57,571 nucleotides of DNA. Origin: Planctomycetota bacterium. GTDB lineage: Bacteria > Planctomycetota > Planctomycetia > Gemmatales > Gemmataceae. Shown piece by piece: positions 54,711 to 57,561 of the stretch (within the stretch, counting starts at the first letter, position 1; every line of letters starts with the position of its first letter). Under the pieces are notes generated by a model that saw nothing but the letters and a program-made list of their open reading frames with translations, was not told the origin of the DNA and ran no database searches. A program made the translations under genes and the position numbers. The DNA lies in the NCBI GenBank assembly GCA_016873095.1, contig VGYC01000021.1, forward strand, positions 1 through 57,571, in the 5' to 3' direction.

Positions 54711-56699
54711 TCAAGTCACGTTGATCGTCAGCACATCGTCGAGGTCGTCGAGCAGCGGGCCGCTAATCTGGACGACCGTGATCGATTGCGTTCCCTTCTT
54801 GGTCAGCTTCAGGCCGCTGAAGGTGTGGACACCTGCGTCGCTGGCCGTGAAGGTGTAGTTGGCTGGCAACGTTGCGCCGCTATCGGAGCTGCTGAAATGT
54901 ACCGTGCCCGTGTAGCCGGTGGCCACGTTGCCGTAGGCATCGTACGCCCTGACGGTGATGCTGAAAGCGGTCTTGGCCTTGAGGCTGGCCGGTCCGCTGA
55001 TCGTCAGGTGGGTGGCCACGCCGGGATTCACCTGGATCAGGGCGCGCGCGGCGCCGTCGGGCACGGTGACAATCAGCCTCTGACCGGTGCCGGCGGTCTT
55101 GAACGTGGCGCTGAAGGTATGCACGCCCTGGTCCGCAAGCGTGAAGGTGTAGTCGGCCGGCAGCACCGCTTGCGGGTCGTTGTTGCTGAAGAAATGCACG
55201 GTGCCGGTATAGTCGGTGATGGTGTTGCCATCGTCGTCCTGCACGGTGACGGTGAAGGAAAATGGTGTGCCCGCGGTGGCGCTTGCCGGCGCGGAGACGA
55301 CCAGGGTCGGCACATCCAGTGACGGGCCGTTCTCGATGAACCGGCTCACCGTCAGATGGCGCGGCCCGGTGTCATCGTTGACGATGCCGGACAGGCCGGC
55401 CACGACCAGCTTGCCGTCGCTCTCTGCCAGTGCCAGGGCCCCGCTCCCGCCGGGACCAATTTGCAATTCCAGCCGGCCGTTGTTGCCGAAGTCCATGTCA
55501 GCGCTGCCGTCCGTATTGAAGCGCATCAACACGGTGTTGTGCACCAGGCGGACAAGCTCGCCGCCGCTCTGACCGGCAAAGCCGGCGGCGACAATCTTGC
55601 CATCCGCTTGCAGGGCAACGCCGTGGGCAACCTGATTGATAAAGCCGGTCAGGCTGACGAAATCGGCGGTGACGATGCCGTCGCCGCCGAAGGAGCTGTC
55701 CAGGTTGCCGTTGCTGTCATAGCGGACCAGCACGACGTCCGTGGCGGTGCCGCCGGGAGGGGCGCCCATGTACGCCTCGCCGGCCAGCAGGATATTGTCG
55801 TTCCCATCGATGGCCAGATCATACACAAAGCTGAGAGTCGAGGTGTACGAGCCCGACGTGATGGGCGTCGTGACCACGCCATCGCCGCTGAAGGTCGTGT
55901 CCAGCGTGCCGTTGTCGTTCAGGCGCATGGCCCCGAAAATCATCCCGCTGGCGGTGCCGCCCGCAACGATCTTGCCGTCGGACTGGATGGCCAGATTCGC
56001 GGTGGGCACGCCGACGGCGAACGTGGCCTTGCCGCCGCTGCCGAAGGTCGTATCGAGGCTGCCGTTGCTGTCGTAGCGCACGACCACGTCGCTGCTGCCC
56101 CCGCGGCCGCCGACCACGATCTTGCCATCCGTCTGCACGGCGATGCTGCTGGCCGAGGAATTGACCTTGTTGCCGAAGCTGGTGGTCACCTTGCCGCCGT
56201 TGCCGAAGGTCGTGTCCAGGCTGCCGTCGTCGTTGTAGCGGGCCAGGGCGATGTCCGTGTAAGAACTCCCCTGCGCGACCCGCGTGGCCAGGCCGACCAC
56301 CACCGTTTTGTTGTCGACGACGGCGACCCCGTCCGCGCGGTCGAAAAGCCCATTGAAATCGGTGTTGACGATGCCGTCGCCGCCGAACGAGGTGTCCAGC
56401 GTGCCGTCGCCGTTGTAGCGGACCACCGCGAAGTCGCCGGACACGTTGCCGGTGGCGAGCACTTTGCCATCCGCCCGCACCGCCACGTGGATGCTAGGCG
56501 CATTCCCATAGGACCAGGAAAGCGCGGGCGTGGTGACGACGCCCGCCGTCCCGAAGGTGGGATCGAGCCAGTCGGCCGCCGTGGCCGGCACGCAGCGATC
56601 CTCCAACGCCTCCAGTTGTAGCCGGCACCGCTTCCGCCCCGCCGCCCGGGGCGAATGGGTGCGCGATCCACGAAACCAGCGCGACAGCGACGTCATCAT
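54711..56699 (-). CDS. delta-60 repeat protein with LEALEDR motif
   Basis: A 662-residue exported protein. The planctomycete motif LEALEDRCVP lies at residues 29-38. About seven delta-60 repeats follow, each with D-x-x-F-G-x-x-G (DTSFGGDGIV, DTTFGNGGKV, DSSFGGDGIV) and probably forming a beta-propeller. Two similar Ig-like domains of about 95 residues complete it (TPFSFTVTVQDDDGNTITDY and TAFSITVRAYDAYGNVATGY). The family is seen in large cell-surface or secreted proteins. The ATG at 56699 has AGGAG. The biochemical role is unknown. Confidence 0.9.
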   Translation of the reverse strand: MMTSLSRWFRGSRTHSPRAAGRKRCRLQLEALEDRCVPATAADWLDPTFGTAGVVTTPALSWSYGNAPSIHVAVRADGKVLATGNVSGDFAVVRYNGDGTLDTSFGGDGIVNTDFNGLFDRADGVAVVDNKTVVVGLATRVAQGSSYTDIALARYNDDGSLDTTFGNGGKVTTSFGNKVNSSASSIAVQTDGKIVVGGRGGSSDVVVRYDSNGSLDTTFGSGGKATFAVGVPTANLAIQSDGKIVAGGTASGMIFGAMRLNDNGTLDTTFSGDGVVTTPITSGSYTSTLSFVYDLAIDGNDNILLAGEAYMGAPPGGTATDVVLVRYDSNGNLDSSFGGDGIVTADFVSLTGFINQVAHGVALQADGKIVAAGFAGQSGGELVRLVHNTVLMRFNTDGSADMDFGNNGRLELQIGPGGSGALALAESDGKLVVAGLSGIVNDDTGPRHLTVSRFIENGPSLDVPTLVVSAPASATAGTPFSFTVTVQDDDGNTITDYTGTVHFFSNNDPQAVLPADYTFTLADQGVHTFSATFKTAGTGQRLIVTVPDGAARALIQVNPGVATHLTISGPASLKAKTAFSITVRAYDAYGNVATGYTGTVHFSSSDSGATLPANYTFTASDAGVHTFSGLKLTKKGTQSITVVQISGPLLDDLDDVLTINVT

Positions 56700-57085: not shown

Positions 57086-57186
57086 AGCCCCGTTTACTGG
57101 GCTTCCCGCGCCAGCGGTATTCGGCCCGCCGTTGACGGCGGGTTGTCACTGCGATCTCCCCGCTCTTCAGCCCCGTTTACGGGGCT
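57086..57186 (+). repeat. composite palindromic repeat, unit I (A-B-A)
   Basis: 101 bases: palindrome A (AGCCCCGTTTACTGGGCT, 57086-57103), 21 bases, palindrome B (CCCGCCGTTGACGGCGGG, 57125-57142), 26 bases, palindrome A (57169-57186). Confidence 0.9.
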
Positions 57187-57279
57187 TCCCGCTGTTTGGC
57201 TTTAGCTTTCTTCCAGCCGCCGACTCGCTCCAACCGCCCCGGCCCGGCACCCCACAATGGCTGAAGCCGAACCGCGAGA

Positions 57280-57382
57280 AGCCCCGTGAACGGGGCTCAC
57301 CGGCGGTGGTCGTGGCCCCGCGGTACCCGCCGTCAACGGCGGGCCTAGCACCGCTGCCGCGGCAAGCCCCGTGAACGGGGCT
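57280..57382 (-). repeat. composite palindromic repeat, unit II, inverted
   Basis: 103 bases in the opposite orientation: A (AGCCCCGTGAACGGGGCT, 57280-57297), 28 bases, B (CCCGCCGTCAACGGCGGG, 57326-57343), 21 bases, A (57365-57382). The 21-base side carries the same GCGGCAGCGGT core as units I and III when reverse-complemented. Confidence 0.9.
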
Positions 57383-57459
57383 GGCAAACCAGTGACACGT
57401 CTCTCGTTGCCGCGATGTTTTTGTCGGCACCGGTCCAAACACAGCATGCTCCGATCTTC

Positions 57460-57561
57460 AGCCCCGTTCACGGGGCTTGCCGCGTCAGCGGTATTCGGCC
57501 CGCCGTTGACGGCGGGTTGGCACTGCGCTCTCTCCCAGTCCCGAGCCCCGTTCACGGGGCT
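57460..57561 (+). repeat. composite palindromic repeat, unit III (A-B-A)
   Basis: 102 bases: A (AGCCCCGTTCACGGGGCT, 57460-57477), 21 bases, B (57499-57516), 27 bases, A (57544-57561). It ends ten bases before the window edge, so the array may continue. Sequence outside the A and B palindromes is also shared with unit I (GGTATTCGGCCCGCC). Confidence 0.9.

Follow-up and report, generated by a model that had tools for sequence, protein, structure and literature searches.

A compound three-hairpin repeat family associated with a single-copy IS200-type transposase gene in Gemmataceae and related bacteria

The palindromic array at the end of the window, which is the whole 57,571-nucleotide stretch of DNA analysed, belongs to a repeat family whose units also flank a transposase gene, tnpA, in the host genome and in most of some 40 relatives. 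We consider it likely that these are parts of a REPtron/REPIN-like system with compound three-hairpin arms, in which the units would serve as recognition arms and TnpA would act on them in trans. The three-hairpin form and its enzyme group appear to be undescribed; repeat-plus-enzyme systems as such are known. A literature search found no description of the repeat in Gemmata-type bacteria, with most subscription journals beyond its reach, so an earlier description is possible.

The array and its genome-wide repeat family

Direct reading and pattern scans place three A-B-A units in alternating orientation at the end of the window (Table 1). The A-to-B spacer is 21 bases in all three units and the B-to-A spacers are 26, 28 and 27 bases in units I, II and III. 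The unit sizes, spacers and orientations given in an earlier note on this DNA are exact to the base. A single mismatch is found in the palindromes of the array, in the first A of unit I (AGCCCCGTTTACTGGGCT). The window contains 12 matches to A (six sites, both strands) versus 0.2 expected by chance, and six matches to B (three sites) versus 0.46 expected; none of 100 shuffles of the window equalled the A or the B count. The 21-base spacer, correctly described as conserved, forms a fourth, 4-bp hairpin, h (CCGC-NNNN-GCGG), and then the foot of B.

Table 1. Features of the array, with positions in the window (contig C21). A1, A2 and B are the main hairpins of a unit, and h is the small hairpin.
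Feature	Position	Length	Strand	Parts	Evidence
Unit I, forward arm of complete dimer	57086-57186	101 bp	+	A1 57086-57103; h 57106-57117; B 57125-57142; A2 57169-57186	Sequence, pattern scans, covariance model match (C21:57085-57208, E 4e-25)
Dimer centre	57187-57279	93 nt	.		Alignment of 18 dimers
Unit II, inverted arm of unit I's dimer	57280-57382	103 bp	-	A2 57280-57297; B 57326-57343; h 57351-57362; A1 57365-57382	Sequence, pattern scans, covariance model match (C21:57258-57383, minus strand, E 1.7e-26)
Linker between the two dimers	57383-57459	77 nt	.		Homologous linker in contigs C369 and C379 (tnpA locus)
Unit III, first arm of second dimer	57460-57561	102 bp	+	A1 57460-57477; B 57499-57516; A2 57544-57561	Sequence, pattern scans, covariance model

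Units I and II are one complete dimer and unit III is half of a second. The ends of the dimer centre carry conserved TTCCCGCTGTTTGGCTTTAGC / GGCTGAAGCCGAACCGCGAGAA arms in the alignment of 18 dimers, and in contig C379 the place of this centre is taken by the tnpA gene. The window is the whole of contig C21, and the array is broken off by the contig end. The last 127 bases of C21 are also the start of contig C232, in which the inverted partner of unit III follows after 84 nt. The identical 127 bases end the reverse complement of C379 as well, so either C21 or C379 could precede C232. Together, unit II, the linker and unit III are about 90% identical over 318 bp to the matching block of C379, which makes the window array a close relative of the tnpA locus. 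The window dimer can be folded as one long hairpin (z -13.1), and a single arm folds into its separate hairpins. The nearest recognisable gene, about 390 bp from the array, encodes a DUF5122 beta-propeller protein (54711-56699, minus strand) and has internal 81-bp repeats; among all dimers, the intergenic placement was checked for the window array only.

The host genome is a Gemmataceae-type draft of 8.36 Mb in 548 contigs. Repeats in its contigs were counted by pattern searches and with a covariance model built on 64 arms from the host and related genomes. The model finds 60 units at E < 1e-9, spread over 35 contigs; exact matches number 45 for A and 32 for B, and the reversed control patterns are absent (0 occurrences). 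Across the genome, composite units contain 47 of the 52 A sites and 56 of the 59 B sites, so A and B occur as parts of one unit and not independently of each other. Neighbouring units form 18 convergent pairs, three divergent pairs and no tandem pairs, which indicates that two convergent units, together roughly 240-300 bp, make up the basic dimeric element. The ends of many contigs fall in or near a unit, as expected of repeats that break assemblies. The proposal that the unit is a mobilised REP/BIME-like element is well supported by its approximately 60 copies, the head-to-head dimers, the alternating arrays and the flanked Y1 gene.

The alignment of arms contains five helices with 97.7% of cells paired, and 12 base pairs have changed on both sides. 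None of the pairing and covariation measures was equalled in 500 shuffles (0/500) or by sliding. Covarying palindromes are also expected if a dimeric protein reads double-stranded DNA, and REP sequences are known to gain host roles (PMC8266576). Both points would suit a host function, with the hairpins kept as binding sites for such a protein or as mRNA-level structures and their mobility incidental. We give this explanation very little credence: the patchy spread among genera of the family and the linkage to TnpA look like those of a mobile element. The suggestion that the units form an RNA structure likewise found no support, since the window has no Rfam match and a promoter and terminator scan found nothing, including any terminator-like site, within the array.

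The transposase gene and its arms in related genomes

The host genome has five matches to Y1_Tnp (PF01797). One of these Y1 genes (C379:284-742) is bordered precisely by a forward unit at 189-312 and an inverted unit at 760-881, and the locus comprising tnpA and both convergent units spans C379:189-881. Its product has 153 amino acids and passes the IS200/IS605 model NF033573 with 63.7 bits (cut-off 55). The only PDB entries matched by the sequence profile of its clade are of the IS608, ISDra2 and IS200 type. The predicted structure (pLDDT 85) is closest to the ISDra2 and IS608 TnpA proteins bound to their end hairpins, and TnpA_REP (4er8) is the weakest among the 30 structure matches with E <= 0.001. 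The tyrosine motif is formed by Y118, the invariant Q122 and H126, and reads Y---Q--[HR]H; most clade members have HH, and the host copy and several other Gemmataceae copies have RH. W98-Q99 is invariant in the clade, whose proteins have about 130-160 residues. Judged by its sequence, the transposase is not a RAYT and carries the Y---Q--HH signature of IS200-like subclass 1.2. The RAYT-type transposase search that had been recommended thus did reveal a Y1 transposase, but one of the IS200/IS605 type with Y---Q--HH instead of Y---NP. Immediately next to the tnpA locus (L066:915-1687, contig C379) are a gene for a PIN-domain protein (PF01850) and a small upstream ORF, possibly a toxin-antitoxin pair.

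The host gene has relatives at 49-74% identity in Planctomycetota and Acidobacteriota. Close relatives are found in six other genera of the family; their identity is 64-74%, and G051 has a shorter match. In the class sample the clade gene is present in 15 of 397 genomes, which represent 15 genera, with one copy in each of the 15; these one-copy counts rest on draft assemblies, where identical copies may be merged. The search of named genomes found 36 loci at 49-73% identity in Gemmataceae, Pirellulales, Phycisphaerae and Acidobacteriota (Blastocatellia, Pyrinomonadaceae and Terriglobia), and two further matches that are distant or short; the class and named samples overlap.

In the class sample, hairpins with a 7-bp stem and a TTNA loop occur within 400 bp of every one of the 15 clade genes (78 hairpins), versus 2 of 24 Y1 transposases outside the clade in the window's GTDB family (4 hairpins; Fisher p 5e-9). 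Most clade loci in the named genomes are flanked as well; some Acidobacteriota clade genes (e.g. L302) have no flanking hairpins at the threshold used. At the same threshold, the 54 arms that contain B comprise 17 with A1-B-A2, 23 with B and one A, and 14 with B alone. TAG is present within the 4-nt outer foot of 34 of the 54 B hairpins versus 2 of 85 A hairpins, and the first base of this foot is variable.

The layout is kept across lineages: A is AG..CT, B is CC..GG, the loops are TTNA, and a TAG foot precedes B. The stems are wholly different between lineages that share this layout, as in Pirellulales, Phycisphaerae, Pyrinomonadaceae and Blastocatellia. The B stem is CCCGCCG in the host, CCCGTCG in G063, CCCCGGC in G168 and G237, CCACCAGC in G244, G289 and G337, CCAGTCC in a Phycisphaerae genome and CCACGCC in Pyrinomonadaceae. 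Because the stem sequences change while the pattern persists, the gene and the repeats appear to co-evolve. Genome G337, which has one clade gene, contains its own CCACCAGC palindrome 22 times, and this B palindrome is absent from five genomes whose B is of another type. In the family, a minimum of five exact B hairpins was found in five of the seven genomes with a clade gene versus 4 of 88 without one (p 4e-5); the four are G043, G062, G065 and G076, in which no clade TnpA was detected. These counts point to repeats that are cognate to the clade gene of each genome.

The passing of the IS200 family model, the predicted IS608/ISDra2 fold and the position of the gene exactly between inverted ends would all fit an ordinary IS200/IS605-type insertion sequence, that is, a mobile tnpA element with elaborate ends of which the dimers are internally deleted derivatives. 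In IS608 and ISDra2, which share with the clade the HUH/Y1 fold (predicted here) and the end hairpins bordering tnpA, each end has just one hairpin and the gene travels together with the two ends. Here there are several hairpins per end, and each of the 15 genomes has one gene copy, against dozens of gene-less dimers; a single copy is in itself no proof that the gene is immobile. The dimer centres also contain no tnpA remnant. An origin of the window dimer centre by internal deletion of tnpA was considered and rejected, as 113 of 1000 shuffles score as high against tnpA as the centre itself, which has no significant similarity to the gene. We therefore regard an ordinary insertion sequence as quite improbable.

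Dimers within MITE termini

The dimer subfamilies have outer flanks in common, and some dimers lie in elements with terminal inverted repeats (TIRs). The beta elements are 388-407 bp long with termini CTGGGCTGATGAAAA...TTTTCATCAGCCCA; they are the youngest host copies, most being about 95-99% identical. Perfect 8-bp target duplications abut four of five, in contigs C130 (CCGTAGCT), C149 (GGGCGAGG), C235 (GGGGAACA) and C193 (GGGTGACT), and the fifth, in C263, has none. Chance alone yields an 8-bp repeat in 16% of mismatched flank pairs, and a duplication was therefore accepted only where it adjoined the TIRs. The alpha elements in C8 and C74 have 10-bp duplications (ATGAGTGAGC and GCTCCTGGCG) beside another terminus. 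In genome G035 elements with CTAGTGCCCCGTCCAGACT termini enclose the dimers, and such termini also bound an element that has no hairpin core; the dimers of G034 have GTGCACAAC-type termini. Across all dimers, target duplications are clear for the alpha and beta groups only. No TIR or duplication was recognised in the window's own group, and the second dimer of the window runs off the contig.

HUH enzymes are not known to make target duplications, so it was DDE transposases that dispersed the alpha and beta copies, and for these two groups hitch-hiking in MITEs is shown. The presence of the core within several unrelated kinds of MITE suggests independent entry into each of them. The analysis met no insertion that could be ascribed to TnpA, and no empty site. 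Copies of the host's beta MITE that lack the core were considered as empty sites and rejected: the intact TIR matches have the core, have an interrupted core or run off the contig, and two beta TIR matches, in C27 and C140, look unrelated beyond the TIR.

The beta TIRs with their perfect duplications, the alpha duplications and the TIR-bounded elements of G034 and G035 raise the possibility that the dimers are no more than palindromic interiors of MITEs and owe their movement to DDE transposases. TnpA would then have no part in their spread, and the arms around tnpA would be a relic or would serve tnpA only. Such an explanation is unlikely in our judgment. The cores sit in several unrelated TIR families, so something carried them between these families; the arms around tnpA are conserved in many genera, with stems that co-vary with lineage; and many of the host's own dimers, like the window array, have no recognisable TIR or duplication.

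Two features of individual hairpins were observed in the host copies. The A2 hairpins within a single alpha or beta dimer (e.g. L015:1461-1715) are not identical, one being AGCCCCG with a 5-nt loop and the other AGGCCCG with a 4-nt loop. The ends of such a dimer are therefore distinguishable, which would permit discrimination of left and right ends. At four host (G000) loci, in contigs C148, C271, C276 and C301 (L243, L026, L027 and L028), insertion sequence ends (AGACAGTCTCATTTTTT..) sit at one same point of an A or A2 hairpin, after CCCGTNNAC. A variant end occupies this point in G035:C218 (L197, L321), with a fragment of an IS1182-family element (NF033551) beside it. The hairpins may be targets of IS1182-type elements; an inverted-repeat-replacing mechanism is reported for IS1272 (PMC5678879).

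Comparison with known systems and proposed mechanism

The system resembles REPtrons (RAYT/TnpA_REP) in that a single-copy Y1 gene stands between inverted palindromic units and numerous other units occur without a gene, for the most part paired head to head or strung into alternating arrays. Further similarities are the TAG-type foot on the 5' side of B and the joint change of gene and repeats by lineage. REPtrons differ in having one hairpin of 20-50 nt, whereas the full arm here spans about 120 nt and has three hairpins of 7 bp in addition to small ones. Their foot is a strict GTAG, compared with TAG(G) here, and their transposases have Y---NP, compared with the Y---Q--HH of a clade enzyme that passes the IS200 model.

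Two other groups of TnpA_Y1 proteins are relevant. Subclass 1.2 is IS200-like, has the Y---Q--HH motif and a low copy number, is generally without typical terminal structures, has a conserved C-terminal domain and is found mostly in Cyanobacteria and Bacteroidetes (PMC6006769, Quentin et al. 2018). The clade shares its tyrosine motif (Y---Q--RH in the host copy), low copy number and IS200-like character, but has elaborate hairpin arms at all 15 genes and occurs in Planctomycetota and Acidobacteriota. A quick tree places the clade apart from the subclass-1.2-like genes of the family, with 34 of 34 members together on a long branch and a node support of only 0.47. Class 3 is present in Planctomycetes and Acidobacteria, with atypical flanking structures and repeats that can be high-copy (PMC6006769). 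Its enzymes have Y----Q, W[TA], a CnGA foot and a tabulated length of 178 residues (PMC6006769), in contrast to the Y---Q, invariant WQ, TAG foot and about 130-160 residues of the clade, and identification of the enzyme as a class 3 TnpA was rejected on the Y and W motifs.

REP dimers within longer palindromes have been described for GTAG-15 of A. variabilis (Anabaena) and CGTC-1 of H. neapolitanus (Halothiobacillus) (PMC3733652). The dimer cores described here are similarly embedded in longer palindromic sequence. They differ in that, for several groups, the outer palindromes could be identified as unrelated MITE-like termini, some with target duplications.

Architecture and co-evolution suggest how the REPtron/REPIN-like system would work. 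The HUH (Y1) transposase of IS200 kind, encoded once per genome between two convergent A-B-A units, most likely binds hairpins of single-stranded DNA, which are probably exposed on the lagging-strand template. Hairpin B with its TAG foot would be the REP-like core, and A1, h and A2 would be accessory hairpins. TnpA may bind, cut and rejoin, and so mobilise in trans, short gene-less dimers of two convergent units, with the result that the dimers would increase in number and the gene would remain single-copy, as happens in REPIN/RAYT systems. The array in the window alternates in the manner of a BIME and holds one full dimer and half of a second. By a separate route, some dimers have become cores of TIR-bearing MITEs, which DDE transposases moved recently. 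A separate origin from RAYT/REP is conceivable, and we put it forward with somewhat less than even confidence: a domesticated subclass-1.2-type transposase of Planctomycetota and Acidobacteriota, an arm of three covarying hairpins, and dimers within unrelated DDE MITEs, giving two mechanisms of travel.

How single-copy, apparently domesticated Y1 transposases arise from insertion sequences and spread repeats is unsettled. The clade looks like such an intermediate, its enzyme being of IS200 type and its lifestyle of REP type. At some 40 homologous loci, enzyme and hairpins have changed together, and from covariation at these loci the specificity code between HUH enzymes and DNA hairpins could be read. 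The tie between REP-like dimers and MITE termini bears on why REP dimers occur inside longer palindromes.

Variants of the arms were also observed. The Y1 genes of L085 and L101, which are subclass-1.2-like, are each flanked by one inverted pair of TTNA-loop hairpins (CCCAGCCC.. and CCCAGCAC..), possibly a simpler state of the three-hairpin arms. The B hairpin CCCGCCGTTNACGGCGGG is present in about 51 copies in G062 and about 12 in G065, often as tight inverted pairs 6-22 nt apart; with no clade TnpA detected in these genomes, it would be a single-hairpin relative or an orphan repeat. At L083 (G051:C163) the clade gene is flanked by A and a different second hairpin (AGCCCGGTCCTTTAGGGCCGGGC), with no A2, and this is an arm variant.
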